64,000 bases of DNA from Geothrix sp. PMB-07. Lineage in GTDB: Bacteria > Acidobacteriota > Holophagae > Holophagales > Holophagaceae. The notes beneath the pieces are model-generated. The model saw only the letters and a program-made list of their open reading frames with translations, did not search any database and was not told the DNA's origin. A program made the position numbers and the translations under genes. The stretch is taken from positions 3,534,992 to 3,598,991 of the forward strand of contig NZ_CP132333.1 in NCBI RefSeq assembly GCF_030758935.1. The letters are read 5' to 3'. Shown in pieces: positions 3,104-42,575 of the stretch (position 1 is the first letter of the stretch; each line of letters starts with the position of its first letter).

Positions 3104-4309
3104 GTGCTTCGCCGTGGGTTCGTCAAGCTGCACCGCTGGTTTGGTCTGGGCGCAGCGGCCTTCCTCTTCATCGCCGGCTTCACCGGCGCCATCATCTCCT
3201 GGGACCACGAGCTCGACGCCTGGCTCAACCCCAGCTTCTACCAGGCCCGCGGCCAAGGCCCGGCCCGGCCGGCTCTGGTCCTGGCGGCCGCGGTGGAGGC
3301 GGCTGAACCCAGGGCCCGAATCCGCTTCATGCCGCTGGAGGCCGAGCCGGGACAGACGCTGTTGATCTCCCTGGAGCCCCGCCTCGACCCCGCCACCGGC
3401 CGTCCCCACGACCTGGGCTACAACCAGATCGCCGTGGATCCGGCCACGGGGGACATCCAGGCCCGGCGCGAGTGGGGCCAGACCTCCCTCAGCCGGGAGA
3501 ATCTGCTGCCCTTTCTCTACAAGCTGCACTACAGCCTGCACCTTCCCAAGGCCTGGGGCCTCGAGCTGGGCGTCCTGCTGATGGGCGTCCTGGCCATCCT
3601 CTGGGTATTCGACTGCTTCATCGCCCTGTGGATTTCCTTTCCCTCCCTGGCCACCTGGCGCCAGTCCTTCAGCTTCCGGTGGCGGCAGGGAGGCCCGCGG
3701 CTGGTCTTCGACTTGCACCGCTCCGGTGGCGTGTGGGCCTGGTTCCTGCTGCTGATCCTCGCCGTCACCTCGGTGAGCATGAACCTCAACACGCAGGTCA
3801 TGCGGCCCCTGGTTTCGCGCTTCTCCAGACTGACGCCCTCTCCCTTTGAGCGCCGCGCGGGCCAGGTGATCCCCGCCGAAGACATGGCCGGAGATCCCAG
3901 GGTCTCCATGGCCCGCGCCGTGGACCTGGCCCAAGCCGAGGCCCATCGCCGGGGCTGGACGGCCCCGCCCGGAGGCGTCTTCTTCTCCGCGGAAACCGCC
4001 CTGTGGGGCGTGGGCTTCTTCAAGGCGGGACAAAGCCACGGCGATGGCGGCCTGGGCAACCCCTGGCTCTACTTCGATGCCCACAGCGGTGAATCCCTTG
4101 GGGCCGACGTGCCGGGCACTGGCTCGGCCGGGGACATCTTCCTCCAGGCCATGTTCCCGCTGCATTCCGGGCGCATCCTGGGGCTGCCAGGGCGGATCCT
4201 TGTCTCCCTGCTAGGCCTGGCCGTGGCCACACTCAGCGCCACGGGAATTCTGATCTGGTTGCGGCGTCGCCGCTCCGAAGGCCGGGTCCGCTCGCTCCGG
4301 AGACCCTGA
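3104..4309 (+). CDS. PepSY-associated transmembrane protein (iron uptake, probable reductase)
   Basis: PepSY_TM family inner-membrane protein, 401 aa. These proteins are commonly encoded next to TonB-dependent siderophore receptors and are thought to reduce or release siderophore-bound iron. Start is GTG 3104, preceded by AAAGGAGG at ideal spacing; the longer in-frame ORF would overlap the receptor. Four hydrophobic helices are visible: near residues 12-32, 155-180, 205-225 and 365-390. Histidines in or beside them (LHRWFGLG near the N-terminus, KLHYSLHLP, DLHRSGGVWAW, MFPLHSGRI) are candidate haem ligands. The long periplasmic segment between helices 1 and 2 holds the PepSY-type domain. The reductase role is family inference. 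Confidence 0.88.
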   Translation: MLRRGFVKLHRWFGLGAAAFLFIAGFTGAIISWDHELDAWLNPSFYQARGQGPARPALVLAAAVEAAEPRARIRFMPLEAEPGQTLLISLEPRLDPATGRPHDLGYNQIAVDPATGDIQARREWGQTSLSRENLLPFLYKLHYSLHLPKAWGLELGVLLMGVLAILWVFDCFIALWISFPSLATWRQSFSFRWRQGGPRLVFDLHRSGGVWAWFLLLILAVTSVSMNLNTQVMRPLVSRFSRLTPSPFERRAGQVIPAEDMAGDPRVSMARAVDLAQAEAHRRGWTAPPGGVFFSAETALWGVGFFKAGQSHGDGGLGNPWLYFDAHSGESLGADVPGTGSAGDIFLQAMFPLHSGRILGLPGRILVSLLGLAVATLSATGILIWLRRRRSEGRVRSLRRP

Positions 4310-4311
4310 AC

Positions 4312-4346
4312 AAGGAAGGCGCAGATCCGTGATCCGCGCCTTCCCT
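4312..4346. terminator. Bidirectional hairpin terminator between convergent genes
   Basis: AAGGAAGGCGC at 4312-4322 pairs with GCGCCTTCC at 4336-4344, and an inner GATC/GATC pair extends the stem. It lies in the 59-bp gap between the plus-strand PepSY gene and the minus-strand phosphatase gene, so it can serve both. Only short T/A runs flank it. Confidence 0.65.
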
Positions 4347-4368
4347 TCAGTTGAAGCCATTCAGAGCG

Positions 4369-6432
4369 CTAGTCTCGCTCCTCCCACTCCCGCTCGGCAG
4401 GCTCGTCGCCGGCCAGGGCCGCCTTCATCAGCTTGAAGAAGACATCAGTGTTCTTCTGGGCACCCACGAAGCGCAGCCAGGCCTTGTTGCCCGTGCTGTA
4501 GGCGGAGACGGGGATGTCCGCAGCGGTGTGCACGGCCTGGCCTTCGCCATTCAGGTGGCCCCGGATGAAGAAGCCGTTCTTGTCCACGTCGCGCAGCTCG
4601 GGGATGGTGGCGTATCCCTTCGCACCCAGAAGGCCCGTGGTGCCCTTGAAGGGGCTGGGCAGCAGGCTGTCGATGACCGGAGTGGGCTTGGACAGCCAGG
4701 ATTCGTAGCGGTCGCTGTTGGCGCCGAACCCCACCAGCACCTTGTTGTCGATGTCCATGGTGGCCGGGTAGCCATCGGGCAGGATCTTGTAGCTGGGGAA
4801 TCCGGCGAGATCGTAGGTGCCCACGGCATTCTGATGGGCGGGGACCGTGCCGGGGCTCAGCGTACCGTTTTCGGAAGGCAGGTTCTTGAGCGCCGCGATG
4901 CCGCCATTCAGGGAGAGGGCACCGATGAGGCTGAAGCCCGAGCACTCGTGGTCGGCCAGCACCAGAACGGTGGTGTCGCCTAACCGGTCAGCCCACTTGC
5001 GGGCCACGCCCACGGCCCGGTCGAACTCCAGGGTCTCGCCGATGGCGCGGTCCGCATCCATGAGGTGGGACTGCTTGTCGATGTGGGCGCCCTCGATCAT
5101 CAGCACGAAGCCGTCGCGATGGTGGGAGAGCACCTTGAAAGCCGCCTCGGCCATCTCGTCGAGCATGGGCTGGTCGGGCGCCAGGTAGTCGTCCACCACA
5201 TAGCTGGAGGCCCCCGCGGGCAACTCGCCGCGACGCTTGGCCACCTTGTCCAGCGCCACGTTCATGTTGCCGTAGCCGAAGAGGCCCAGAAGTTTCTGGG
5301 GCGCGTGGCCGGACGTCAGGGCGTCCAGTTCCGTGTGGCTGGAGGCGTAGGAGAACCCGGCCGTCTTGAAGTCGTTGATGAGATCGCGGGAGGCGCTGCC
5401 CTGCTTGGCGGGGGTGGCGGGCAGGTTCCAGCCGGCAATCAGATCGGCGGGCAGACTGGGATAGCCGGTGCTGTCGGTACGGCTGGAGTAAAGCGTGGTG
5501 GCTGGCATGAACCAGCGGCGACCACCGCCGAGCAGCACGCGCAAGCCCGTGCCGAAGGCGCGGCTGTTGCCGGGATCGCTCTCGTCAAGGTACTGGTCCA
5601 CCACACCGGTGCCGTTGTTGCGGTTGGCCGTGTGCACCGCGTTGGCGGCGGGCGTCGCATCTTCCACATCGGCGGTGCTGACCAGGCCCAGCGCGGTGCC
5701 CTTCACCCGGTGGAGGTATTCGGCGAGGTATTCCACCCGCGGCGCATAGAAGGGATTCGTGACATGCGCCGGGTAAACGCCTTCCTGACCGTTGAAGAAG
5801 TGGTTGCCCGTGGTGTAGCAGGCCATGCCCGGGGCGGAGTCCGTGATGATGCTGTTCAGCGAGTGCGTGCTCACCAGGCCCGTGCCCGGAAACTGATCCA
5901 TCTCCAGGCGGCCGTTGGGGTCGCCCGCTGTGACGCCGTAGCGCACGATCCGCGCGGCGGTGCGATGGGCCACGCCCATGCCGTCGCCCAGCATGATGAC
6001 GATGTTCTTCGTCAGGCGGCGATGGCCCCGAGCCCCTTCAAAGGGATCGACAACTTGGATGCGCGAGGTCACGGTGGTGGTGCCCGTGCCATCCGTGAAC
6101 TCGGCCGTCAGCGTGTGCCAACCCTTGTGGCCAAGAGAGGTGCCGCGCAGGTTGAAGCCGCCCCAGCCCGCGGCAGAGATGCCATCTGTCGTCGCGGTGC
6201 CCTGGGCGCCCGAGGTGAACTTGGCCAGGCGTCCGTCGATCCAGAGCTTGGCGGAATAGGGGCCCGCGCCCTGCCCTTCCACCCGGATGTCAAAGCGCTG
6301 GTTGGCGAGGAGGCGGGCACCGTCGGATGGCAGGAGCGCCACATTGGACGGAGCCGCAATGGCCGGGGCGGCCGCGGCGACAGCCAATGTGAGCAGGGCA
6401 GCGGCCCTGCGGGACTGTGAGACCAGGGTCAT
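4369..6432 (-). CDS. Secreted alkaline phosphatase with N-terminal Ig-like domain
   Basis: Alkaline phosphatase superfamily enzyme, 687 aa, hydrolysing phosphomonoesters outside the cytoplasm. Residues 1-26 are a Sec signal peptide (AAAAPAIA). Residues ~28-125 look like a beta-sandwich domain (RFDIRVEGQGAG, LWIDGR). The catalytic domain follows: IVIMLGDGMG (metal-binding Asp), TDSAPGMACYTTG (Ser nucleophile in DSA), MIEGAHIDKQSH (Asp/His metal ligands) and LADHECSGF (Asp-His ligand). AAGGAGG precedes the ATG and lies inside the upstream gene, with which it overlaps by 4 bp (ATGA), implying translational coupling. It is larger than E. coli PhoA because of the N-terminal domain and insertions. 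No clear Pho box was found. Confidence 0.9.
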   Translation of the reverse strand: MTLVSQSRRAAALLTLAVAAAAPAIAAPSNVALLPSDGARLLANQRFDIRVEGQGAGPYSAKLWIDGRLAKFTSGAQGTATTDGISAAGWGGFNLRGTSLGHKGWHTLTAEFTDGTGTTTVTSRIQVVDPFEGARGHRRLTKNIVIMLGDGMGVAHRTAARIVRYGVTAGDPNGRLEMDQFPGTGLVSTHSLNSIITDSAPGMACYTTGNHFFNGQEGVYPAHVTNPFYAPRVEYLAEYLHRVKGTALGLVSTADVEDATPAANAVHTANRNNGTGVVDQYLDESDPGNSRAFGTGLRVLLGGGRRWFMPATTLYSSRTDSTGYPSLPADLIAGWNLPATPAKQGSASRDLINDFKTAGFSYASSHTELDALTSGHAPQKLLGLFGYGNMNVALDKVAKRRGELPAGASSYVVDDYLAPDQPMLDEMAEAAFKVLSHHRDGFVLMIEGAHIDKQSHLMDADRAIGETLEFDRAVGVARKWADRLGDTTVLVLADHECSGFSLIGALSLNGGIAALKNLPSENGTLSPGTVPAHQNAVGTYDLAGFPSYKILPDGYPATMDIDNKVLVGFGANSDRYESWLSKPTPVIDSLLPSPFKGTTGLLGAKGYATIPELRDVDKNGFFIRGHLNGEGQAVHTAADIPVSAYSTGNKAWLRFVGAQKNTDVFFKLMKAALAGDEPAEREWEERD

Positions 6433-6989
6433 GGGTGGACCTCCTTGGGGGTGGTGGTTGTGGGCTTCTCCGGCACGGCGCCGGGCAGATCCTGAGGACG
6501 ATCGAGCAGCAGCCGGATGTGGGTCACGCGGTCGTCGGGCTCCACCCGGTAGCCCACTTCCAGCAGGCCCGTCACTTCGAGCGCCTGTGGCGTGTGGGGG
6601 ATCTCCTTGCCCGCGAAAGAACGCACCAGGACGTACACCGCCTCGGGCGGAAGGTCGGCCGTGCCGCCGCCTTCCTCATCGCAGGAGACGGGCCGGGGGG
6701 TCAGGTAGAACGCGCCTTTCGGAGCGACTTCCATCTTCGCCATGAAACCCACCAGCTTCACCCGCTGCCCGGCAAACGCCAGGAGTCGCTCCGAAGGCTT
6801 GAGTTCCCCGGCAGCAATGGTGAAGAATTCCGAGAAGGCAAGACAGGGCACCTCAGCGGCCTTGATGACATCTGGTTTGGCGGTGTCCATGCCGTGGGCA
6901 CCGGGTTCGGCCCCCAGTGCCAGGGCCAAGGCCAGGGGCACGCACCGCAGGAATCGGATCGCTCTGATCGTCAAACTTTTTTCATTCAT
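6429..6989 (-). CDS. Small secreted protein resembling DUF3299 family
   Basis: Predicted exported protein, 186 aa, with a signal peptide (MNEKSLTIRAIRF then an Ala/Leu-rich core ending GAHG). I placed the start at ATG 6989, preceded by GAGGCAGCC; an upstream ATG at 7118 is possible but gives no signal peptide. The core pattern GQRVKLVGFMAKM, a loop with a single Cys (VSCDEE), then PEAVYVLVRS and LEVTGLLEVG resembles DUF3299-type small beta-barrel proteins of unknown function. It is the first gene of a two-gene operon with the alkaline phosphatase. Its role is unknown; a phosphatase accessory or metal-handling role would be speculation. Confidence 0.7.
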   Translation of the reverse strand: MNEKSLTIRAIRFLRCVPLALALALGAEPGAHGMDTAKPDVIKAAEVPCLAFSEFFTIAAGELKPSERLLAFAGQRVKLVGFMAKMEVAPKGAFYLTPRPVSCDEEGGGTADLPPEAVYVLVRSFAGKEIPHTPQALEVTGLLEVGYRVEPDDRVTHIRLLLDRPQDLPGAVPEKPTTTTPKEVHP

Positions 6990-7358
6990 GGCTGCCTCGC
7001 AAACGAGATGAGAAGGCAACCCGAGAACGCCGTCAATGCGGGCAGGAAGTAGGTATTTACAGTTCCACGACCGGCTCGATTGGCAGTAATTCCAAACAGA
7101 CAAAGTCCTTCTGCTCATTGCTCATCCATGACTCGGAAATGGTTGATGCACGTAAAGTCACTGCAAACTTCCAGGCTGGTTACGCCGCCCTCCGTTCTGG
7201 TTCCCTGAGACCTCTGACACCTCATGCGTGCGGCGGTAGCCCTGCTCGCGACTGGAATCCACCCCGGCCGCGTGGAATCCGCCGAAGAAGGCCTGCCTTC
7301 AGGGCGCGCCACCACCACTCCACTCGGGGTTGGGCTACGCTGGAAGGCTGGAGTTTCG
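6990..7358. other. 369-bp divergent intergenic region
   Basis: Region between the minus-strand phosphatase operon and murA. It is more AT-rich near 7040-7180 and must carry promoters for both directions. I found no convincing operator, hairpin or small gene. The ORF that continues upstream of murA's ATG has no initiation signal. Confidence 0.5.
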
Positions 7359-15923: not shown

Positions 15924-16601
15924 ATGAGACTGGCCGCCCCGCTCCGTCCATTCACCCTTCTCATGTCGGCACTCCTCCTCGCCGCGCCCACGCCGCCCTC
16001 AGCCCGGGCCATGCGGTTGCTGCATGAGGGTCAGCGTGAACTGAAGGCCCTTCGGCAGGGCAGCTATGACCATCGCGTCGCCGTGGATGAAGCAGCAGGG
16101 CGTTTTGATTACGACTGTTCGGGCTTCCTCCATTACGCCTTGGGCCGCGTGGATCCCGAGGCCCAGCAACTGCTCCCCATCACCTCCAAATCCAAGAAGC
16201 GGCCCCTGGCCCAGGATTTCCACGCTTTCTTCAAAAGCCTGGGCGAGGCGGGACAAGGGCCTTGGAAGCGCGTACTCCACGCCCGCAACCTCAAACCCGG
16301 CGACATCGTGGCCTGGCTCAAGGCCCCCGACAGCGATTCCCACAACACCGGCCACGTGATGCTGGTGCGCGAGCACGCGTACCCGAATCCCGACCGCCGC
16401 GATGAGATCCTGGTGCCGATCATCGATTCCACCATGAGCGCCCATGCCCAGGACAGCCGTGCCAAGGGCGAAACGGGCCTGGGCCAGGGCCTCATCGGCA
16501 TCCTGGTGGATGGAGAGGGGCGTCCTCTGGCTTACCGCTGGAAGGGCGGCGAATCCAAACGGGCGGTGGAGACGGACATCGCCTTCGGGCGGCTGGAGTA
16601 G
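15924..16601 (+). CDS. Exported NlpC/P60-like cysteine peptidase/amidase
   Basis: 225 aa with a signal peptide (hydrophobic core FTLLMSALLLAAP) and start at ATG 15924 behind AAAGGAG. DYDCSGFLHYALG provides the catalytic-type Cys in the D-C-S-G-F arrangement of NlpC/P60 enzymes. LKPGDIVAW and NTGHVMLVREH provide the later strand and His. These enzymes usually cleave peptidoglycan stem peptides; the compact sequence and lack of a wall-binding domain leave the substrate open. It sits 26 bp after the CHR transporter gene and may be co-transcribed. Confidence 0.75.
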   Translation: MRLAAPLRPFTLLMSALLLAAPTPPSARAMRLLHEGQRELKALRQGSYDHRVAVDEAAGRFDYDCSGFLHYALGRVDPEAQQLLPITSKSKKRPLAQDFHAFFKSLGEAGQGPWKRVLHARNLKPGDIVAWLKAPDSDSHNTGHVMLVREHAYPNPDRRDEILVPIIDSTMSAHAQDSRAKGETGLGQGLIGILVDGEGRPLAYRWKGGESKRAVETDIAFGRLE

Positions 16602-16665
16602 CCTTCACCCGAATTCCCCTTGCCACTGGACAATCACTGGCCAATCCTTGGAGCCGGAGGTCGCC

Positions 16666-17724
16666 ATGGCCCGCGCTGCGTCCCGCAAGGTGCTTGAATC
16701 CCCCCGCCCGGATGGCGGCCATCTGGTGAAGCCCGAGCGGCTTCAAATCGTGCTGGAGGCCATCCGCGATGCCGGGGAGCGGGGCATCACCAAGGAGGGC
16801 CTGGCCCGCAAGCTGGGTGGCGTGGCCATGCGCACCGTGGACCGCGCGGTGCAGCTGCTGGAGGAGCAGGGTGCCCGCTTCGGCAAGGCCCGGGAAGGCC
16901 GCCCCGCCATCATCCACTTCACCCTGGAGAAGGCCCCGGATTGGGACAGCCGCATCACGCCCCATGCCCGCATGGCCCTGGAAGTGGCGCTCATGGCCCT
17001 GGAAGGCACGGCCACGGAGCTGTGGTTCGATCAGCTGGAGGGCCTGCGCACCCTGGCGGACAGCCACCTCAGCACCCGCGACCGCGACCTCTTCCGCGCC
17101 CTGCAGGAACACGTCTGCGTGCGCGGCGGCGCCGACGACCAGCAGGCCCTGGACACCAAAATGCTCACCCAGGTGCTGCTGGCCTTGGGCCATCCCGAGG
17201 GCCCGCGCGAACTGGAACTCACCTACGCTGCGGCTTCCACGGGGCGCACCAGCGCCCGCACCGTGGTGCCCTTCACCCTCACCCACGATGTGTTTTCCGG
17301 CGGCGCCTTCCTGCTGGCCTGGGATGCCGCCAAGCAGGAGCCCCGGCACTTCCGCCTCGCCCGCATCGAAGAGGCCAAGGCCCTCACGCGGCGGGGGCTG
17401 ATTCCCGACAAGCGCCCCCTGGAACAGGCCCGGGAGCTGCAGATCGGCGGCTGGTACCGGCAAGCGGAGCCCATGCAGATCCAGGTGCGCGTCTCCGGCA
17501 CCAACTGGCCCCAGGCCCTGCTGGACGCACCCCCTGCCCTGCCCGGCGTGACCGTGCGGAAGGAGAAGGGCGGCACCGTCCTGCTGGGCTTCCAGGCCAC
17601 CGAGCTGTCCGGCCCCACGCGCTTCATCCTGCAGTTCGGGGCTGAGGCGGAAGTGCTCGAACCGAAGGTGCTGAGGGAGCACCTGGCCAAGACACTCAAG
17701 GCCATGGCCGCCCGGTACCGCTAA
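16666..17724 (+). CDS. HTH/WYL-domain transcriptional regulator (second in window)
   Basis: 352 aa, starting at ATG 16666 with GGAGG upstream. Basic N-terminus, then a helix-turn-helix (~residues 25-75: IRDAGERGITKEGLARKLGG with RTVDRAVQLLEEQGA), then a long WYL-type effector region (LELTYAAASTGRTSARTV, AWDAAKQEPRHFRLARIEEA) and a C-terminal WCX-like extension (VRVSGTNWPQALLD). Not closely similar to the WYL protein at 8679. Its target is unknown; it is not obviously in an operon. Confidence 0.78.
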   Translation: MARAASRKVLESPRPDGGHLVKPERLQIVLEAIRDAGERGITKEGLARKLGGVAMRTVDRAVQLLEEQGARFGKAREGRPAIIHFTLEKAPDWDSRITPHARMALEVALMALEGTATELWFDQLEGLRTLADSHLSTRDRDLFRALQEHVCVRGGADDQQALDTKMLTQVLLALGHPEGPRELELTYAAASTGRTSARTVVPFTLTHDVFSGGAFLLAWDAAKQEPRHFRLARIEEAKALTRRGLIPDKRPLEQARELQIGGWYRQAEPMQIQVRVSGTNWPQALLDAPPALPGVTVRKEKGGTVLLGFQATELSGPTRFILQFGAEAEVLEPKVLREHLAKTLKAMAARYR

Positions 17725-17858
17725 GGCCCGACCCAGTTCAGGCAGCATCAGAGTCAACGGATCCCCTTGCCGCTTCGGAGGGGAGCGATGGATTCACAGC
17801 CTGAAGGATTCCCTGTCACACGCAGCCCCTAGCCTGGGGCGGTCGGACCGGGGGGCAT

Positions 17859-18527
17859 ATGATGGGGACCAGTCACCGCATCCAAGTCGTGAAGGTGCGC
17901 ACCCAGCGCGATGTCCGCGATGCCGCGCGCGTGCTGGAGGACGTCTTCCAGCGGGAGAAGGGCTGGATTCAATCCGCGGAGCATCAGATCCCCACGGACA
18001 TCGCCCAGAATCCCAAGGTGTCCTGGTTCCTGGCCCGGGCCGGGGGCCTTCCCGTGGGCTTATTGCGATTGGTGTATGACCCGGCGCTGGAACTTCCGCC
18101 GGAGTGCCTTCCCACCTTCGAGGCCGGTGTGGACTTGCAGGCCATGGCCGCCTCGGGTCGCTTCGTGGAAATCGGGCGCTTCATGATCCGCCAGGAGTAC
18201 CGGCGGGATGTCACCATCGCCCTGCGCCTCATGCGGAAGGCCGCGCGTGAAGTGGTGGAGCGGGACTACACCCACTTCCTCACCGATGTCTTCGAGAACG
18301 AGCCCAACAGCCCCTTCCATTTCCACACACGCATCCTGGGTTTCGAGGTGGTGGGCCGCCACGTCCACGGTGAGCTCCACTGCAACTACACGCGCATCAT
18401 CCTCGTCCTGAACATTCTCAAGGCCTACAAGAAGTTCAGGCAGAGCAAGAGTGCCGTTTACGCCACCATCACCCGCGGCTTCCGGCGGCTCATGAACCGG
18501 AAGCTGGCGCTCATGGGCGAGGCGTGA
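17859..18527 (+). CDS. GNAT-fold N-acyltransferase (FeeM/OlsB-like)
   Basis: 222 aa. The central fold follows acyl-homoserine-lactone-synthase/FeeM-like GNAT proteins: WFLARAGGLPVGLLRLVYDP, then FVEIGRFMIRQEYRRDVTIA (Glu-x-x-Arg plus the Tyr-Arg acyl-CoA/ACP contact region) and FHTRILGFEVVGRHVHG. Such enzymes attach a fatty acyl chain to an amino acid or amine (N-acyl tyrosine by FeeM, lyso-ornithine lipid by OlsB). The C-terminus is basic (KAYKKFRQSK, RGFRRLMNRK). Start at ATG 17859 behind GGGGGG. It overlaps the next acyltransferase gene by 4 bp (GTGA). Acyl-amine product is inference. Confidence 0.75.
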   Translation: MMGTSHRIQVVKVRTQRDVRDAARVLEDVFQREKGWIQSAEHQIPTDIAQNPKVSWFLARAGGLPVGLLRLVYDPALELPPECLPTFEAGVDLQAMAASGRFVEIGRFMIRQEYRRDVTIALRLMRKAAREVVERDYTHFLTDVFENEPNSPFHFHTRILGFEVVGRHVHGELHCNYTRIILVLNILKAYKKFRQSKSAVYATITRGFRRLMNRKLALMGEA

Positions 18528-19303
18528 AGCCGCTGGATGCCAAGGACTGCTGGGCCCCCCGTCCTCTGGAAACCCTGCGACGGCCACTCGGCTTCCTGCC
18601 AGCCGCGGACCGATGGCTGCTGCGGGCCCTTTTGTGGCTGCTGGGCCCCCTCGTCCGGGTAGAGGCCCCAACGGCCTTGGCCACGCCCGGGCCTGTGATC
18701 TTCGCCTTCACGCATTCCACGTTTTTCGAGACCCTCTTCGCCGCCCTGGTGCTCTGCTTCCACCGCCAGGAGCGGGTGGCCTTCCTGGTGGATTGGATGT
18801 ACGGCCGCCTGCCCGGATTCCGTTGGCTGGTGGCCAAGGTGGATCCCATCTACGTCTGGAACAAGCGTTCCCAGTTTGGCTGGATCAACCGCCACAAGGG
18901 CGCCAGGCCACCGCGTACGGCCTGGGAGGAGGCGGCGGAGCGGCTGGCTCTGGGCCGTGCCCTGGCCATTTTCCCCGAAGGGAAGGCCCATCGGGATCCG
19001 CAGCAGTTGCGGAAGGGGCGCAGGGGCCTGGGCCACATGGCCCTGACGGCTGCCGCCGTGGTGGTGCCCGTGGGCATCGATTTTCCGCTGCGGCGGACCA
19101 AAGGCCGCATTCCCCGTGTCGGACGCCTGCTTTTCCGGGTGGGCCTCCCCATGGCCTTCCCGGCTGAATCCAGCGCCTACCGGTCCTCACAGGATCCCCG
19201 CCACCAGGCGCAGCTGGCGGATTCCGCCACCCACGGGGTGATGCTTGAGCTGGCCAGGTTGTCGGGCCGCGCGTATCCCTACCCAGCCATCCACCCATGC
19301 TGA
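18524..19303 (+). CDS. PlsC-type lysophospholipid/glycerolipid acyltransferase
   Basis: 259 aa, GTG start overlapping the preceding stop. It has the PlsC arrangement: block 1 FAFTHSTFFETLFAA, an interface helix with MYGRLPGFRWLVAKVDPIYV, block 3 IFPEGKAHRDPQQL and a later VVPVGIDFPL (block 4). Block 1 reads H-x4-E, where the family catalytic dyad is normally H-x4-D; the substitution is conservative but notable. Together with the upstream N-acyltransferase it would make an O-acylated N-acyl product, as OlsB/OlsA do for ornithine lipids. Substrate unproven. Confidence 0.8.
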   Translation: MKPLDAKDCWAPRPLETLRRPLGFLPAADRWLLRALLWLLGPLVRVEAPTALATPGPVIFAFTHSTFFETLFAALVLCFHRQERVAFLVDWMYGRLPGFRWLVAKVDPIYVWNKRSQFGWINRHKGARPPRTAWEEAAERLALGRALAIFPEGKAHRDPQQLRKGRRGLGHMALTAAAVVVPVGIDFPLRRTKGRIPRVGRLLFRVGLPMAFPAESSAYRSSQDPRHQAQLADSATHGVMLELARLSGRAYPYPAIHPC

Positions 19304-21807
19304 AGGGGCTGCTTCGGCATCTGCTGCGGCTGCACCTCCGGCATCCCCGCCCAGTGGCAGGCTGCCTCCTGGCTCTGACGTTGGGGCTGGGCTGGGGGGC
19401 CTTCCGGGTGGAGCGGCGCCTGGATATCCGCGGCCTGTTTCCCCAGGATTCGCCGGTGGTGCAGAACAGCCTCCGTGCGGGCGTGGGAAGCGAGGAGTTG
19501 GTGTGGCTGGCCGCCGAAGGATCACCCCAGGATCTGGAGACGCGGAAGAAATGGCTGGAGCAGTTGGCGGACCGGCTCTGCACCGAGCAGGTGCCACTGA
19601 ACGGGCTCACACCAGAGGGCCGCCTGGCCGAAGCGGTGAGCGTCCCCGGACCCGAAGGCGCGGCACTTTGGCCTCCGCTGCTGGCTGCCGGTGCCTTGGC
19701 CGCAGGCGATGAGGACCTCCTGAAGGCCCTCGGGCAACGGGCCTACCGCTTGGCGCCTCTGGTGCTGGGGCACCGGCTGGACCCCCTGCTGGAACCCGAA
19801 GCCGCCTCCAAAGCCCTGACGCGTTCAGTGGAGGACTTGCGGGGGCTGGATCCGGTCCAGGCCCGCCTCGCCATCCTGGATCCCCTGCGCTTGAGAGAGG
19901 GCCTCGACCGACGGCCCTACCAGAAGGCGGCGTCCTCCATGGCCGGGTTCCCCTTCCGCCTGGGCGGCAGCAGCACCCTTGTCTCACGGGACGGGCGTTG
20001 GGCCCTGCTGCCCCTGGTGCTGCGATTCCCCACCGATCATGCGAAGGGAACCACCCGCGTGGTGGCCTGGCTGGCCCAGGGCGCCCAGGGCCCGCTGCCC
20101 GAGCAGGCTTCCCTCGCCGCCATGAAAGCGGCGCTGGCGCCCGATGGAACGCGGCCCTTCGCCCTGCAGGTGACCGGCGCCCACCCCATCGCCGCCTATG
20201 AAAGCAGCCACCTGACGCGGGAAATCGGTCGAAGCCTCGTTCTCTCTTTCCTGCTCATCGGGCTGGTCTATGCCCTTGGGTTCCGCACCCTCTCGGGTTA
20301 TGGGTTCATCCTCGTGCCCTTGCTGGCGGGCATTCTTTGGGGTCTGGGCATCCTCGGTTTGCTCCTGGGCCGCCTGAACCTCCTCGTCGCGGTGTTTGGC
20401 GTGGTGCTCCTGGGAGTGGGCGACGACATCGGCATCCTGCTCTTCAGCCGCTACCTGGAGACGCGCGAAGCCGGACGAACCAAGGCCTCGGCGCTGAAGG
20501 CCATGCTGGTGGGCACGGGCCCCGGTGTGCTGGCAGGAGGACTGACCCTCTCCGCGGCCTTCCTCGCCTTTGCCGCCGCCCCCCTGCCCGCCCTACGTGA
20601 AGTGGGGCTCACCATCGGGTTGGGCTTCCTGACGTGCCTGGCCGCCAGCTTTCTCGTGATGCCCTCCCTCTTGCTGGCTTTCGACCGCGGGGACCGGCGG
20701 CCCAGGCGGTGCGGCGCCCCACGCGCACCGCGGCCCCAGGGCCCGCACTGGCGCCCCTGGGTGGCCGCGGGCCTGGTCGCGCTGGCCATGGCCGGGGCGG
20801 CACACCTGCGTTGGGAGCAGGATCTGCGGGCGTTCAGGCGGAATGAGAACCCTGCCATGGCGCTGCAGGAGCGCCTCGGCCAGGCCGTAGGGACGGGACT
20901 TCAGGCCCTCGCCCTGCACATCGATCTGGTGCCCCCCGGTGCTCTGCCGGGTACCTGGAACCGCGCGGCGAAAGCCCTTCAGCGCGAAGGCCTCCCCTTT
21001 CCAGACTGGCAGCCCTCCCATCCGACAGAGCGGCCCGCACAACTGGAGCGTCTTCTGCCCCAGGCCGTGGCCCTCGGTCTGGATGAAGCCTTTCTCCGGT
21101 CGCGCATTGAGGCCCTGACCCTGGGCACGGCGGATCCGGCCGGTGCCCTGGCCACCTTCGCCGCCCGGGGCTCCCATGCCCTGCAGATCCCCCTGCGGCT
21201 TGATGAGGCGGCCCAGGAGCGCGTGCAAAACCAGCTTGTGGGAAGCCAGGCCATGCTGGTGGGCACACGCCCTCTGGCCCAGGCCCTGAAGGCGCTGGCC
21301 AAGCAGGGCCTCACCCGCGCCATCGTTGCGGCCATCCTGGCCATGGCCTTCATGCTGGCGGCCTTCGGGCGCGATCTTCGCTTTGGCCTCCTGGCCCTGG
21401 TGCCCATCCTGGCCAGTGTGGTGGGCGCCCTCGGCGCGATGGGTCTCGCCGGGGTGCCCCTTGGCTTCCTGTCTTTGTGTGCGCTGCCCATCGCCATGGC
21501 CGTGAGTGTGGATCTGACCATGAACCTGCTGCACCGGGCCCGCCTGGAGCCCCTGTCTGTCACCGGCCTGGGCCGAGTCAACGCCGTATGCGCGGGCACA
21601 ACCCTGGCGGGTTTCGGCGGATTTCTCTTCAGCGGCCACGGGGGTCTGCGAGGCCTGGGCCTCGCCGCGGCAGGCGGCACCGCCCTGGCCCTGCTGACAA
21701 TCCAGTGGCTGCTCCCCCCGTTGCTGGAAAGGTGGCCCCTCGCGCGTCAGGGTCAGGGACGGAAACGGTTGGCCACGAGAGAGGGCGCGTCGGTCCGGGC
21801 CACGTGA
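19297..21807 (+). CDS. MMPL/RND-family lipid exporter
   Basis: 836 aa. Two repeated halves, each with a transmembrane helix, a large periplasmic domain and a 5-helix bundle. The first bundle includes LVLSFLLIGLVYALGFRT and VVLLGVGDDIGILLFSRYLE (Gly-Asp-Asp proton relay as in MMPL proteins). The second includes ALPIAMAVSVDLTMNLLHRA. This family exports lipids, glycolipids or hopanoids to the periplasm or outer membrane. It overlaps the PlsC gene by 7 bp, completing a three-gene acyltransferase/exporter operon. Its 3' end overlaps napB, read from the opposite strand, by 55 bp. Confidence 0.87.
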   Translation: MLKGLLRHLLRLHLRHPRPVAGCLLALTLGLGWGAFRVERRLDIRGLFPQDSPVVQNSLRAGVGSEELVWLAAEGSPQDLETRKKWLEQLADRLCTEQVPLNGLTPEGRLAEAVSVPGPEGAALWPPLLAAGALAAGDEDLLKALGQRAYRLAPLVLGHRLDPLLEPEAASKALTRSVEDLRGLDPVQARLAILDPLRLREGLDRRPYQKAASSMAGFPFRLGGSSTLVSRDGRWALLPLVLRFPTDHAKGTTRVVAWLAQGAQGPLPEQASLAAMKAALAPDGTRPFALQVTGAHPIAAYESSHLTREIGRSLVLSFLLIGLVYALGFRTLSGYGFILVPLLAGILWGLGILGLLLGRLNLLVAVFGVVLLGVGDDIGILLFSRYLETREAGRTKASALKAMLVGTGPGVLAGGLTLSAAFLAFAAAPLPALREVGLTIGLGFLTCLAASFLVMPSLLLAFDRGDRRPRRCGAPRAPRPQGPHWRPWVAAGLVALAMAGAAHLRWEQDLRAFRRNENPAMALQERLGQAVGTGLQALALHIDLVPPGALPGTWNRAAKALQREGLPFPDWQPSHPTERPAQLERLLPQAVALGLDEAFLRSRIEALTLGTADPAGALATFAARGSHALQIPLRLDEAAQERVQNQLVGSQAMLVGTRPLAQALKALAKQGLTRAIVAAILAMAFMLAAFGRDLRFGLLALVPILASVVGALGAMGLAGVPLGFLSLCALPIAMAVSVDLTMNLLHRARLEPLSVTGLGRVNAVCAGTTLAGFGGFLFSGHGGLRGLGLAAAGGTALALLTIQWLLPPLLERWPLARQGQGRKRLATREGASVRAT

Positions 21808-22205
21808 CAGAGGGTGCAGACCATTCGGGAACCCGCCACCTGCTTGGCCTTGTGTTCGGGATCGCGGCGCAGGTCCAGGTAGTGGCTGGCGGGAATCGGC
21901 GTGGGCTCGCCCTTTTTCTTGGGGCCGGAAACCGCGTGGCAATCCACGCAGAGATTGGAACTCCGGGTGATGGGGAGGCTGTCGGCGATGCCATGGGGAA
22001 TGACCGGGGGCGTCTCCGCGTTGATGCGCTTCGGGGCCTTCTTCACGCCGGGCTCGGAGGCCTCGTCCTGGTACCTCGGGGGCGCGAGCACCTCGAACAC
22101 CGAGCCCTTGGCAAGGCCCAGGTCCCGATCGCGAAGGGGTTTGGCCGGGGAATCCGCCAGCAGCAGGGCCGTGGCGCAAGAGAGCAGCAGGAGGGCGCGG
22201 CGCAT
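21753..22205 (-). CDS. napB: Periplasmic nitrate reductase dihaem cytochrome subunit NapB
   Basis: 150 aa with a cleavable signal peptide. Two CXXCH haem sites (CVDCH, CTLCH) and the NapB pattern SNLCVDCHAVSG, PIPASHYLDLR (distal His ligand) and RMVCTLCHVARTD are present. It passes electrons to the molybdenum subunit NapA encoded 9 bp upstream. It is the last gene of the nrfHA-napAB operon. The start at ATG 22205 follows GGGAG. The C-terminus overlaps the MMPL gene by 55 bp, so the two operons terminate inside each other. Confidence 0.93.
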   Translation of the reverse strand: MRRALLLLSCATALLLADSPAKPLRDRDLGLAKGSVFEVLAPPRYQDEASEPGVKKAPKRINAETPPVIPHGIADSLPITRSSNLCVDCHAVSGPKKKGEPTPIPASHYLDLRRDPEHKAKQVAGSRMVCTLCHVARTDAPSLVANRFRP

Positions 22206-22214
22206 GGAAACTCC

Positions 22215-24956
22215 CTAGACAACCTTGGCAATGCGGACGGCGCACTTCTTGAAATCCGTCTCCTTGGAGATGGGACAGGTGGCATCGAGGGTCACCTTGT
22301 TGATGAACACGCCTTCGTCGAACCAGGGCACGTAGACGAGGCCCCGGGGCACGCGGTTGCGGCCGCCCACGGTGACCCGGGCCTGAATCTTCCCGCGCCG
22401 CGATTCGATCCAGGCGAGGTCGCCCACTTTGAGGCCTCGCTGCTCCGCATCCTTGGCGTGCATGTAGAGCAGCGCCTCGGGCACCGCCGCGTGGAGCTGG
22501 GGCACCCGGCGCGTCATGGAGCCGGAGTGCCAGTGTTCCAGCACCCGGCCCGTGCAGAGCCACAGGTCGTAGGTGCCGTTGGGCGATTCCGGCGGCTCCT
22601 GCCAGGGCCGGAAGAAGATCTTCGCTTTTCCCGCAAGGGCCACGGGATCTCCCGGCTTCGCGCCGTCCAGATCGCCCATGGGCAGCTTCTTCATGACCTT
22701 GCCGTAGAAGTCGATGCCCGCGCCCTTCTTCGCGTAGGGGTCGTACTGATCGTTGAAGCGCCAGAGGGTTTCCTTGCCATCCACCACCGGCCAGCGCAAG
22801 CCGGCGACATCGCGCTTGAAATAGAGGTCGAAGGGCGCGAGGTCGTGCCCGTGCCCTAGGCCGAAGCGGCGGTATTCCTCGAACAGCGCCTTCTCGGGGA
22901 ACCAGGTGATGCCCGCATGAACCACGGTGGAATTGGGTTTGCCGAAGGCCACGGGATCGGGCCAGGCCACCTTCTTGGCGGCTGGCGTGGCGAAGAGCAC
23001 TTCGTAGAGGGTGGTGTCGGGCTTGTGGCCCAGGGCTTCCGCCGCGGGCAGCACGTTGGGCAGCTTGCCTTTCTCGTAGCCCTCGGCCTCCAGCCCTGGC
23101 AGCGTCTGCTCACCCCACACTTCGGCCAGGGTGAAGCGCTTGGAGAACTCCATCATCTGCCACAGGTCTGAGCGGGCCTCGCCGGGCGGCAGCACCACCT
23201 GGCGCCAGAGCTGGGTGCGCCGCTCGGCGTTGCCGTAGCCGCCCCACTTCTCGTAGATCATGGCCGAGGGCAGGATGAGGTCGGCCACCTTCGAGGACAG
23301 GGTCGGATAGACATCCGAGACGACGATGAAAGTGTCGAGCTTGCGCGCCGCCTCGATCCAATGGTTGGCGTTGGCCGTGGATTGGAAGGGGTTGGTGACC
23401 TGGATCCACAGCCAGCGGACTTTGCCGTCTTCCAGATCGCGCATCATCTGCGTGATGTGGCTGCCCACCTTGGGATTCAGGGTGTTGGGGGGCAGGTTCC
23501 AGATGCCCTCGGCGATCTTGCGATGGCCCGCATCATCCACGCTCATGTCCGCGGGCAGGCGGTGCGCGAAGGTGCCCACCTCGCGGGCCGTGCCGCAGGC
23601 GGAGGGCTGGCCCGTGAGGGAGAAGGCGCCGGCGCCGGGGCGGGCCTGCTTGCCCGTGAGCAGGTGCAGCATGTAGGCCTGCTCGTTCACCCAGGTGCCC
23701 CGCGTGTGCTGGTTGAAGCCCATGGTCCAGTAGGAGACCTGCTTGCGGCCTGGGTTCGCATACTCGTCCGCCAGCTGCACCAGCTTGGCCTTGAAGGCCT
23801 CCAGGGGCTCGTCGGGATCGCCCTTGGCCAGGGCCGCGACGAAGTCGAGGGTGTAGGGCTCCAGGCCCTTCTGGAAATCCTCGAAGGAGATGAGCCAGTG
23901 CTTCTGGGCGCTGCCCGAGGCGGTCTGGGCGCGCTCGTGCCGAGCTTCGGGGTCCAACCCGCGGGCGATGGCCTCCTCCCGGGTGAGCACCACCGTCTTC
24001 TGCCGGGCCTGGGTGTCCTTCTCGGCCGCGTAGGCCTTGAGGGAATCCTCCCGCAGGCCGAAGCCGATGTCCGCGGGCCCTGCCGCGAAGACGCAATGCT
24101 TCGCCACGAAATCCTTGTCCACGGCGCCGCGCTTCACCACCTCCCGGGCCAGGTAGTTCCAGATGGCCAGATCGGTGTTGGGCTTGAAGACGATCTCGAG
24201 ATCCGCGCCCTCGGAGGTGGCGTTGGCGTAGGTGGTGAGGTTGATGATGCGGTAGGCAGGCCGCCGCAGCCGCTCGTCGATGATGCGGGCCCAAAGCATG
24301 GGATGCATCTCGGCCATGTTGGCGCCCCAGGTCACCACGGTGTCGGTCAGCTCGATGTCGTCGAAGCAGCCTGCGGGTTCATCGGCGCCGAAGGTCTGCA
24401 TGAAGGCCGTCACCGCCGAGGCCATGCAGTGGCGGGCATTGGGATCGAGGTTGTTGGAGCGCCACCCGGCCTTCACCAGCTTCACGGCGGCGTAGCCTTC
24501 CATGATGGTGTACTGGCCCGAGCCCATGACGGCCAGGCCGGTGGGACCGAGCGCCTTGTGGGCCTTGGACCACTGCGCCTTCATGACGTCAAAGGCCTCC
24601 TGCCAGGACACCTCCTCGAAGTCACCCTGCTTGTCGAACTGGCCGTTCTTCTTGCGCAGGAGGGGGCGCTTCAGGCGGTCCTCGCCGTAGAGGATCTGGG
24701 CGCAGGCGTAGCCCTTGGCGCAGAGCAGTCCCCGGTTCACGGGATTGGCGATATCGCCCTTCACGGCCACCACGCGGCCTTCTTTCGAGGCCACGCGGAT
24801 GCCGCAGCCGGTACCGCAGAAACGGCAGACGCTCCGCTCCCAGTTCCAGCCCTTGGCCTCGGCGGGGAGCGCTTCCAGGGGAAGCCCGCCCGCGCCGATG
24901 GCCGCAGTGGTGAAGCCGGCCTTGAGAAAAGTCCGCCTGTTGAGGGTCAGGGACAT
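22215..24956 (-). CDS. napA: Periplasmic nitrate reductase catalytic subunit NapA
   Basis: 913 aa molybdopterin enzyme reducing nitrate to nitrite in the periplasm. The Tat signal LNRRTFLKA has the twin Arg at 7-8. The [4Fe-4S] ligands are C44, C47, C51 and C79 ([10 protein letters not shown], then GLLCAKGY). The Mo-ligand Cys is in [14 protein letters not shown], followed by [14 protein letters not shown]. The C-terminal MoCo-binding motifs [14 protein letters not shown] and [10 protein letters not shown] are present. I favour ATG 24956 (AGGTGG upstream) over GTG 24965. No napD (Tat proofreading chaperone), napC or napGH is adjacent, so electrons probably come through NrfH. Confidence 0.95.
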
Positions 24957-39704: not shown

Positions 39705-40757
39705 CTAAACAGGCCTAGTTTTTCGATCGGTTTGGGCCACCTTCCGAACGGCCTTCCGGCCCTTATCCTTCGAAGGCCTTCCGTCCATCATTTTCATCAT
39801 CTCTTTGCCGTGTTCCGCCACCATGACGGCCTGCACCATCTTGAGGACTACTGTTTGCGACTCGCATCCATGGGTATTTGCGAATTCATTACAGGCCTGA
39901 GCCAGCTGATCTTCCGGCGAACCATGAAGGCGTGAGCCAAAGGACTCCCGCCCTCCTTTACCTGTGGCATTCCCCAGATGATCGGCGTTGGCCGCTGCCA
40001 ATTCTGCGAGGGCCTCTAGTCTGACTATCCAAGGGCCCCCGAGGCTCCACTCATAGTCGTGCATTCCATCATCGTCGTTAGCACGATCGGGATCGTAAGG
40101 GATAACCCAAGGAAGATTGAAAGCTTCTGCATCTTCGAGAAGGCCTGGTGAAGGTGTAAAAGATAAATCAACCAAACTATCTTTAGATTGTTCTCTAAAA
40201 AGATCGCCAAATTCTCGCAATTCTTGCCATTCTGCGATATTAACGGTTCCACTTAGCGGAGCACCATTTGCATCCGTGGGGTCTTTGACGCCCGATCTTG
40301 CAACGGGGTATCTATTTCTCGAAAGTATTTCTCTTGCCCCTTCCCTTACTTCCAGCAGTGCAATTGCTAGATTGTATGCCTTTTCCATGATGTTTTGTAA
40401 ATCAGCTCTAGCTTCCTTAGAGCGTTCTATTTTTCGAATACTGCGTTTAGTGTCGTGATATTTGAAACGACAACGCGACAAGAATAAATTAAGCTCATCA
40501 AATTCAATCCCTTTAAAACTAGGCAATAGCTCACACGCCGTTTTAGTTAATTGGTTTTTTGCTGCATTTTCCTTAATCTCATATCTCGCATAATCGTCAT
40601 CTGTTGAGATAACATCAGCCCCCGATGCGATGCCTTCTTTAATACTTTCAACATCCTCTGGACCGCACATAATTAGACCGAGATCGTTTCTTCGTTTCCA
40701 CCTGAGTTCCAGAGCAATTTTCAGCAAATTTCGGAGCGTTTTAAGATCCTGAGCCAT
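39705..40757 (-). CDS. AT-rich orphan gene of the element (possible recent acquisition)
   Basis: 350 aa, start at ATG 40757. No domain recognised. The N-terminal two thirds (LKTLRNLLKIALELRWKRRN, ISTDDDYARYEIKENAAKNQ, RCRFKYHDTKRSIRKIERSK) is charged and helical and is encoded by strikingly AT-rich DNA from about 40100 to 40750. The C-terminal third (GKGGRESFGSRLHGSPEDQL, HGKEMMKMMDGRPSKDKGRK) is encoded by DNA of normal GC. This suggests a chimeric gene assembled by recombination. Located between the HTH protein and the IS, where cargo is usual. A host-interaction or defence role would be speculation. Confidence 0.6.
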   Translation of the reverse strand: MAQDLKTLRNLLKIALELRWKRRNDLGLIMCGPEDVESIKEGIASGADVISTDDDYARYEIKENAAKNQLTKTACELLPSFKGIEFDELNLFLSRCRFKYHDTKRSIRKIERSKEARADLQNIMEKAYNLAIALLEVREGAREILSRNRYPVARSGVKDPTDANGAPLSGTVNIAEWQELREFGDLFREQSKDSLVDLSFTPSPGLLEDAEAFNLPWVIPYDPDRANDDDGMHDYEWSLGGPWIVRLEALAELAAANADHLGNATGKGGRESFGSRLHGSPEDQLAQACNEFANTHGCESQTVVLKMVQAVMVAEHGKEMMKMMDGRPSKDKGRKAVRKVAQTDRKTRPV

Positions 40758-40994
40758 GCGCGCCCCCACGATGCACCCCCGCAAGGTGGCGCGGCATCCA
40801 GAGCGGGGGCCTGGAGTTCGGGAGCTACCCGAGCCGTGCCGAAGTCAGTCTAGGGCGTGAGTTTCAGCCTGCCCAGTTCAGTCATATGGCGCATTGCTTC
40901 TTCCGGGGTTCAGGTGCGACCCTTCGGTTCTTCGTCACATCCTAATCGGATTCGAGCTGCGAGTAATTCTGTCCTGGGAGACTAGACGCACCCC

Positions 40995-41180
40995 ATGCGC
41001 ATCTCCTACTTCATCCCTGATGACCCAAAACGGTCCAAGGTGCTGGCACTGGCAGAGGAACGCCGCCTGCCAGCGCGGCAGGACGGCCAGTGGGTTGTAT
41101 TCGATGCGGTGAATGATGCTGAACCACTTCAAGCGATGCTGAAGGCTGCCGGGGTTCCAGTTTCTGGTCGGACTCATTGA
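40995..41180 (+). CDS. Small hypothetical protein
   Basis: 61 aa, basic, MRISYFIPDDPKRSKVLALA then LPARQDGQWVVFDAVNDAEP. A short alpha/beta sequence without a known family. It lies upstream of the IS element on the plus strand and is preceded by ~240 bp of non-coding DNA (40758-40994) in which I see no clear element. It may be real or a chance ORF; codon use is plausible. Confidence 0.4.
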   Translation: MRISYFIPDDPKRSKVLALAEERRLPARQDGQWVVFDAVNDAEPLQAMLKAAGVPVSGRTH

Positions 41181-41262
41181 ATTTCACTGTGTCAGGTTGG
41201 CCTGTCCCCTCCAAATAGAGCCAAGCTAAATGTTAAGGTCCACTCCAAAGGAGTCGGATCCA

Positions 41263-41529
41263 ATGAGGACAAGCAAGTTCACCGAGGAGCAGATCGTGGG
41301 GCTTCTCAGAGAGGCGGAGAAGGGGGAGCAGACGGTCGATGCCCTCTGCCGGGCCCGTGGGATCACGGCGCAGACCTTCTATCGATGGCGAAAGAAGTAT
41401 GGCGGAGTCGAGGTTTCCGATGTCCGGCACATGCGGCAGCTTGAGAAGGAGAACGCCCAGCTCAAGCGCCTTCTGGCAGAACGGGAGCTGGATATCGCAG
41501 CCCTGAAAACGGTTCTCCGAAAAAAATGA
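41263..41529 (+). CDS. IS3-family transposase OrfA (HTH)
   Basis: 88 aa from ATG 41263 (MRTSKFTEEQIVGLLREAEK); an in-frame ATG at 41230 lies inside the inverted repeat and is less likely. The HTH (VDALCRARGITAQTFYRWRK) binds the IS ends and a leucine-zipper-like helix follows (RQLEKENAQLKRLLAERELD). It ends with A7-TGA, where OrfB begins one frame back. An IS150/IS407-like subgroup is likely. Confidence 0.9.
   Translation: MRTSKFTEEQIVGLLREAEKGEQTVDALCRARGITAQTFYRWRKKYGGVEVSDVRHMRQLEKENAQLKRLLAERELDIAALKTVLRKK
41520..41526 (+). promoter_or_regulatory. Programmed -1 frameshift heptamer A-AAA-AAA
   Basis: In the OrfA frame the last sense codons read CGA AAA AAA TGA, so A41520-A41526 forms a perfect A AAA AAA slippery heptamer directly before the stop. 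Slipping back one base enters the OrfB frame at ATG 41526. This is the known way IS3-family elements make the OrfAB transposase. Independent re-initiation at the ATGA overlap is also possible. Confidence 0.7.
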
Positions 41530-42575
41530 GTGGCGCGTCGCAGCGAAAGGAGGGGGCGGCATACCTGACGGCCACCGGCTTCTCCCAGCGGCGCGCTGCC
41601 CGGGCCATGGGCCTGAGCCGTTCCTATGTCCGGTATTCACGCCGGGTGAAACTGGATGGGCTGGACGAGCGGATCGTCCAGCTTGCCCATGCCAACCCCC
41701 GCTATGGCCACCGGCGCGTCTGGGCCCTCCTGAGGCGGCTCCAGCTCCGGGTGAACCTGAAACGGGTCCACCGGGTTTTCAAAGCCCATGGCCTCCAGGT
41801 CCGGCGGCGTCCCAAAAAGCACCTCCGGACCGGCCAGCATGTGCCGATGAAATCCGGGTATCCCAACCAGGTCTGGTCCTACGACTTCGTCCACGACAGC
41901 TGCCTGAACGGCGAGGTCGTGAAGTGCCTGACGCTCACCGACGAGTTTACGAAGGAGGCGTTGGTCATCGAAGTGGCCTCCTCCTTCAAGGCCGAGGAGG
42001 TCATGCAGGTCCTCAAACGCTTGTTCCAGACCCGGGGATGGCCCGCATTCCTGCGCAGTGACAACGGCCCCGAGTTCATCGCCCATGACCTCCAGGTCTG
42101 GCTGATGGCCACCGGTGCCCAGACCTTCTACATCCCCCCGGGCTCGCCCTGGGCCAACGGCGTGGCCGAGAGCTTCAACAGCAAGTTCCGGGACGAATGC
42201 CTGAACATGGAGGCCTTCTCCAGCCTGGCTGAGGCCAAGGTCATCGTCGAAGCCTGGCGCCGTCGCTACAACGAGGAGCGCCCGCACAGCAGCCTGGGCT
42301 ACCTCACCCCAACCGAGTTCCGCTGCACCATTGAACTGGCTCAGCTCGGTCTCCCTGCGACGGGGGCTCTGCCCCCGGACCCCCGGGATTTATCGCTTTG
42401 GGCACCCCCGGTGGAGGCCAACGCCCTGACAGAAAAGGCCAGGGCGTTTCCCCTGGCCAACACCGTCCGGTGCATCTCCGAAGCGCTCAAGTCGCTTCCC
42501 AGCGTTGCTCTACCCTCTCCGGAGATGGAAGCCAAGCTACCATCTCCTGGAAGCTCCTGGCCAACCGGCCATTAG
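41526..42575 (+). CDS. IS3-family transposase OrfB (DDE integrase core)
   Basis: 349 aa. N-terminal HTH_21-like region (RYGHRRVWALLRRLQLRVNL) and rve integrase core: first Asp in VWSYDFVHDS, second Asp in RSDNGPEFIA, Glu in ANGVAESFNSKFRDECLN; complete DDE triad, so catalytically intact. After the usual family end (RPHSSLGYLTPTEFR) the frame runs on for ~75 residues with no resemblance to transposases, probably read-through into the IS end region. Confidence 0.93.
   Translation: MSGASQRKEGAAYLTATGFSQRRAARAMGLSRSYVRYSRRVKLDGLDERIVQLAHANPRYGHRRVWALLRRLQLRVNLKRVHRVFKAHGLQVRRRPKKHLRTGQHVPMKSGYPNQVWSYDFVHDSCLNGEVVKCLTLTDEFTKEALVIEVASSFKAEEVMQVLKRLFQTRGWPAFLRSDNGPEFIAHDLQVWLMATGAQTFYIPPGSPWANGVAESFNSKFRDECLNMEAFSSLAEAKVIVEAWRRRYNEERPHSSLGYLTPTEFRCTIELAQLGLPATGALPPDPRDLSLWAPPVEANALTEKARAFPLANTVRCISEALKSLPSVALPSPEMEAKLPSPGSSWPTGH

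Follow-up and report, generated by a model that had tools for sequence, protein, structure and literature searches.

Within a 64,000-nucleotide stretch of the genome of Geothrix sp. PMB-07 (here called the window; G000 is its genome, Gnnn are other genomes and Lnnn extracted loci), three open reading frames (ORFs) on the forward strand occupy positions 17859-21807, neighbors overlapping by 4 and 7 bases. Their products are an N-acyltransferase of FeeM type, an O-acyltransferase resembling PlsC, and an MMPL transporter (Table 1). A sequence-only reading had proposed three overlapping genes of these families as an aminolipid operon with its own exporter. The gene positions and family assignments hold, and all three proteins passed their Pfam cut-offs.

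The three proteins

The first protein scored 37.8 bits against PF21926 (curated cut-off 27) and was the only match to that family in G000. When its AlphaFold model (mean pLDDT 90.7, from an alignment of 21 rows) was compared with the PDB, the top four matches were chains of 2g0b, which is FeeM (E 1.8e-9, TM 0.59/0.71), with other GNATs and acyl-homoserine lactone (AHL) synthases ranking closely behind. In sequence the resemblance is distant: the structural match to 2G0B has 16-18% identity, and phmmer against PDB sequences returned only a meaningless match (E 1.7), so that the fold search was used instead. Across 21 rows of the family, 27 positions are invariant, including E33, K34, W36, R70, G106-R107-F108, and D143. 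Against the OlsB-type family PF13444 (Acetyltransf_5), to which we take OlsB to belong, the protein reached 20.3 bits, under the cut-off of 22.4, and for this reason we do not count it as an OlsB. The NCBIfam scan of the operon proteins gave matches below cut-off only, among them a weak one of this protein to the exosortase-associated acyltransferase TIGR03694 (18.2 bits; cut-off 112). The earlier view that the enzyme stands nearer to FeeM than to OlsB was thus borne out, and profile and fold both pointed to FeeM rather than to an unrelated GNAT. We predict that it N-acylates an amino acid or a small amine. Across G000, PF13444 had zero matches at E 0.001 and GH3 (PF03321) none, so that the genome offers no other aminolipid route of those types.

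The second protein matched PF01553 with 55.1 bits (cut-off 23), and its model (mean pLDDT 89.4) found GPAT1 (glycerol-3-phosphate acyltransferase), PlsC (5kym), and PatA in the PDB. The canonical catalytic motif of OlsA/PlsC acyltransferases is HX4D; here HX4E takes its place. H64 and E69 were invariant in 21/21 rows, and HX4E was present in all 43 O-acyltransferase rows (the window's, 41 by pattern, and L068 by eye; L024 and L060 are identical). An FPEG-type block is kept in most of them.

The third protein scored 79.8 bits against PF03176 (cut-off 20.5). Its two best NCBIfam matches, HAE3 and HpnN, were both below cut-off (HpnN model TIGR03480, 104 bits against 752). It shares the MMPL fold of the HpnN/HAE3 lipid transporters and scores far below those models' cut-offs. 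The membrane aspartates of resistance-nodulation-division (RND) transporters serve in proton relay, and those of this protein, D377 and D739, were invariant in 6/6 aligned rows.

Table 1. Features of the operon, its surroundings and related loci (window positions unless a locus is named)
Feature	Position	Strand	Basis
FeeM-type N-acyltransferase, GNAT/AHL-synthase fold, 222 aa	17859..18527	+	PF21926; fold match 2g0b
LPLAT/PlsC-like O-acyltransferase, 259 aa, GTG start, HX4E motif HSTFFE and FPEG block	18524..19303	+	PF01553
MMPL/HAE3-type RND transporter, 836 aa, D377 and D739 conserved	19297..21807	+	PF03176
Operon insertion: segment missing from relative G028 at this site (locus L105)	17739..21754		blastn and junction views; ends +/- about 16 bases
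Left flank: WYL/WCX-domain regulator, outside the module	16444..17724	+	matched in 47/47 genus genomes
Right flank: short, cytochrome c-like protein (CxxCH motifs, by eye)	21753..22205	-	3' end overlaps end of MMPL gene
Anion-symporter-like genes	L013 1972-3429, L015 5364-6830, L022 2597-4069, L024 8670-10394, L026 5579-7099, L060 8612-10336		PF03600 (CitMHS) for L013; sub-cut-off DASS matches for the three scanned; others by similarity to L013

The FeeM and PlsC genes as a unit

A FeeM gene was found in 29 Acidobacteriota genomes, 25 of which have a PlsC gene adjacent or fused to it. The 29 come from three overlapping searches rather than from one random sample: 18 of 396 genomes in a phylum sample, 4 more in the class (a search giving 5/93, G000 included), and 7 more in the class of G418 (12/148, five of them already counted). 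In the genome_contigs scan, whose loci come from Chlorobi, Desulfobacca, KSB1, Caldithrix, Spirochaetales, and others, the figure was 19 of 20 FeeM loci; in the sole exception, L027, the FeeM frame is broken and no PlsC gene lies in the preceding 7.5 kb. Since L024 of that scan and G107 hold an identical fused protein, one genome is probably in both lists. Three distinct fusion proteins were seen (L060, identical to L024; L072; L120), all with PlsC before FeeM. This order is also that of every other pair seen, and the window alone has FeeM first. The conserved unit is the FeeM-PlsC pair, with a linkage far beyond chance, and it is best read as a mobile two-gene synthase. The idea that an N-acyltransferase is paired here with an O-acyltransferase is therefore upheld. 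Searches of an open-licence library turned up no paper describing such a pair.

That leaves the FeeM genes with no PlsC gene next door, in G055, G390, and G403 and in G492, whose divergent FeeM scored 64.8 bits against our alignment model and had no Pfam match. These four of 29 genomes bear on an alternative in which FeeM makes a free, one-chain N-acyl amino acid, as a signal or biosurfactant, which the MMPL protein exports, and the PlsC-like enzyme acts on phospholipids or tunes the acyl supply. Single-chain products are what FeeM, TyzA, and the AHL synthases make, and in the tyz cluster the gene for the FeeM-fold TyzA is near an MMPL gene, mmpL9; the available text of that paper names no PlsC partner, gives an acyl-oxazolone as the product, and has export as a proposal of its authors rather than as a demonstrated step (PMC10404671). 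However, the near-constant pairing with PlsC, next to which the MMPL gene is a dispensable partner, argues the other way, and we consider a one-chain product unlikely.

At L122 of G492 (86-1159 and 1456-2139), the divergent FeeM-like gene is just downstream of an RND gene. As the best match of the RND protein is AcrB type, it was not counted as an MMPL.

The three genes appear to have been acquired by this genome, given the distribution, an empty site in a relative and the FeeM tree described below. The FeeM gene was found in 0/46 other genomes of the genus and 0/76 of the family, not all of which are complete. In G028, the match to the left flank (window to 17738) meets the match to the right flank (window from 21755), the two sharing 16 bases of G028, and the segment holding the three genes is missing between them, as seen both by blastn and in junction views. 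The end of the window MMPL gene runs into right-flank sequence. In 6 of 11 relatives' loci viewed, the gene found at window position 25011 comes next after the WYL gene instead. Base composition does not point to a foreign source and is not part of the argument: the operon has a G+C content of 0.688 (window, 0.652), and the 2-kb blocks across 16001-24000 range from 0.670 to 0.698. Elsewhere in the window, 40001-42000 has a G+C content of 0.544 and may be another acquired stretch.

Linkage of the transporter

The sequence-only reading held the pair to be locked to a dedicated MMPL exporter. This part has to be given up, as an MMPL gene adjoins the pair in only 7 of the 29 Acidobacteriota genomes, namely, that of the window, G042, G046, G048, and G050 of family f3, and G389 and G418 of family f73. 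At G042, a short ORF lies between the FeeM and MMPL genes. The possibility raised in that reading that the genes might be unlinked in relatives accordingly divides: it is false for FeeM and PlsC and true for the MMPL gene in most relatives. The MMPL gene beside the pair in the window is nonetheless real, and MMPL genes of two clades adjoin such pairs.

In an MMPL tree of 29 rows (L092 and L093 left out as the same genes as L068 and L071), the window protein fell with the host family's own MMPLs (100/100), and the six other pair-linked MMPLs formed one separate clade (100/100); the seven came together as one group in 0% of 200 bootstrap trees. Identity figures point in the same direction, with the window protein about 51-52% identical to a second MMPL of G000 and 24-26% identical to the MMPLs of family f3. 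Its position within the family clade is unsure because of a long branch and of the tree's warnings (long branches; uneven composition in 18/29 rows). In a FeeM tree of 45 rows (without L025, L027, G483, and G492), the row of the window groups with those of Spirochaetales, Caldithrix, KSB1, Desulfobacca, and Chlorobi (97/89), and the other six rows with a linked MMPL are in a different clade (99/95). A label test on this tree reports one change and ignores unlabelled rows, so we read the separation from the tree itself. As the seven linked loci belong to two clades in the MMPL tree and to two in the FeeM tree, an exporter was probably joined twice, two independent joinings being the simplest reading.

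The second MMPL gene of G000 (L031 8042-10603; G000 C1:4175044-4177602) is genus-wide, its kind being matched in 43/47 genus genomes, its own included, and lies near ABC-transporter, peptidase, and Hsp70 genes.

One can also envision that the MMPL gene is a chance neighbor: the acquired pair would have inserted next to an MMPL gene typical of the host family, and the two would work apart. The rarity of MMPL genes at pair loci, the family affinity of the window MMPL, and the FeeM-first order unlike that of all other pairs seen are what such an event would leave. Against it, the PlsC and MMPL genes share 7 bases, all three genes together make up the segment absent from G028, and MMPLs of a separate clade adjoin pairs in families f3 and f73. 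We regard a chance neighbor as distinctly improbable.

In a further alternative, the pair acylates the amine of an envelope peptide, protein, or sugar, as exosortase-linked acyltransferases do, and the MMPL protein carries an unrelated lipid. The weak TIGR03694 match would suit this, as would the presence of an exosortase (PF09721) in four of the eight pair genomes tested, G042, G046, G389, and G418, which are all the tested MMPL-linked genomes except the window's. However, G000 itself, like the three remaining pair genomes tested, has no PF09721 match, and in the four carriers the exosortase gene is on another contig or megabases from FeeM. Of the explanations weighed here, this seems to us to have very little chance of being correct.

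Phosphate genes and the proposed aminolipid

At each of the 11 Chlorobi loci, a porin-like gene and pstS come after the pair in the same orientation. At eight of these, the series continues with a second pstS, pstC, pstA, pstB, and phoU; L021 and L022 have a pstC piece upstream on the other strand, and L014 lacks further pst genes within its locus. One PstS and one PstA were confirmed by NCBIfam. Near pairs from groups other than Chlorobi, no further pst genes were matched; PstB-like matches there scored far lower (37-81 bits, compared with 531-634) and resemble ordinary ABC ATPases. The phosphate link is thus confined to Chlorobi and to gene order. It suggests that the product may be a phosphorus-free lipid serving as a phospholipid substitute.

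Other neighbors recur as well. An anion-symporter-like gene lies on the opposite strand, beside or near the pair, at six loci from Chlorobi, Caldithrix, and Acidobacteria (Table 1; L024 and L060 are probably one genome), and such a symporter might carry the head group or phosphate. Four Chlorobium loci (L009, L011, L016, and L020, at about 3600-7000) share one gene order upstream of the pair, with PHP-domain and calcineurin-like phosphoesterase genes and, on the opposite strand, genes for HAD proteins and methyltransferases.

In known two-step aminolipid synthesis, by OlsB/OlsA or GlsB/GlsA, an N-acyltransferase is followed by a PF01553 O-acyltransferase, and the OlsB and OlsA genes are adjacent, as described in the available part of the source (PMC11631085). 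The operon is alike in this, but its N-acyltransferase is FeeM type (PF21926) and below the PF13444 cut-off, its O-acyltransferase has HX4E, and some of its loci add an MMPL gene. In OlsF, the single-protein ornithine lipid synthase, the O-acyltransferase is at the N end and the N-acyltransferase at the C end, the order of the fusions seen here; the OlsF N-terminal domain, however, is Pfam 19576 according to the same partial source (PMC11631085), whereas that of the fusions is PF01553. FeeM and the N-acyl amino acid synthases (PDB 2G0B) share fold and profile with the first protein, apart from the low identity given above, and the portion of the FeeM literature at hand mentions no PlsC partner. 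The anatomy fits an OlsBA/GlsBA-like two-step synthesis that relies on a FeeM-class enzyme and that, in some lineages, has gained an exporter.

We imagine that the FeeM-type enzyme would move an acyl or 3-hydroxyacyl chain from acyl-acyl carrier protein (ACP) or acyl-CoA onto the amino nitrogen of an amino acid or a small amine. The HX4E PlsC-like enzyme would then link a second fatty acid to the hydroxyl of that chain by an ester bond, to yield a phosphorus-free membrane lipid with two tails, and the MMPL protein, driven by the proton gradient, would lift this lipid or its lyso form from the inner towards the outer membrane. In short, the probable role of the three genes is to assemble a membrane lipid out of an amine plus two fatty acids and to transport it outward. 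This is argued from the FeeM identity, the PlsC fold, the linkage and fusions of the pair, the HX4E motif, the pst genes of Chlorobi, the two MMPL clades, the RND aspartates, and the lack of PF13444 and GH3 matches in G000. That the operon serves to synthesize and transport an acyloxyacyl aminolipid, with head group, product, and transport all predicted, we put at a probability of roughly 0.55.

Several observations weigh against it. FeeM may act alone, as the three genomes G055, G390, and G403 without an adjacent PlsC gene suggest. Three of the five relatives scanned besides the divergent L122 fell below the FeeM cut-off of 27, at 24.3, 25.1, and 23.1 bits; the fused one among the five had no FeeM match at cut-off, and one passed, with 31.1 bits. 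Since most of those scanned score below the cut-off, the operon-type FeeM is a divergent FeeM branch. Specificity for 3-hydroxy acyl chains is not readable from the sequence. The nearest kin of the window MMPL is the genus-wide MMPL, whose neighbors give no lipid clue, and the window MMPL branch is long (0.99). No MMPL gene was found at the 20 genome_contigs loci or seen in 22 of the 29 Acidobacteriota genomes; this absence is only partly informative because contigs end close to FeeM at L008, L019, L027, L062, L070, and L072 and loci from the search in the class of G418 have flanks of only 1.5 kb. A promoter and terminator scan gave no match. In scans for a Pho box, only L016 stood out among 17 pair loci and the triad (1/200 mononucleotide shuffles as high), and none did upstream of the 11 Chlorobi porin genes (at least 25/200 shuffles as high); finding no convincing box upstream of pair, porin genes, or triad, we do not use regulation as support. 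One carrier of all three genes, G042, we infer to be Sulfidibacter corallicola, in which five unidentified ninhydrin-positive lipids are recorded in the available text (PMC8841776). They are a weak hint in favor of an aminolipid; another paper, in its accessible part, lists a GH3 homologue for that species (PMC12493201), a possible other source of aminolipids that counts on the opposing side. Overall, the linkage of the pair is well supported and that of the exporter is weaker.

A broader version of the aminolipid proposal is more tentative, and we hold it somewhat doubtful. It would have FeeM and HX4E enzymes forming an undescribed mobile pathway to a phosphorus-free lipid in Chlorobi, Acidobacteriota, Desulfobaccaceae, Calditrichota, KSB1, and Spirochaetes, joined in two or more lineages by its own MMPL, which would deliver the lipid to the outer membrane. 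With the pair, a FeeM-based route would stand beside OlsBA/GlsBA, OlsF, and OlsHI. To our knowledge, the route by which aminolipids reach the outer membrane is unsettled; because two lineages have a lipid transporter gene next to the synthase pair, the question becomes testable with three genes. The pair could also explain unassigned aminolipids in Acidobacteriota, and its position beside pst genes predicts a phosphate-dependent exchange of lipids in green sulfur bacteria.

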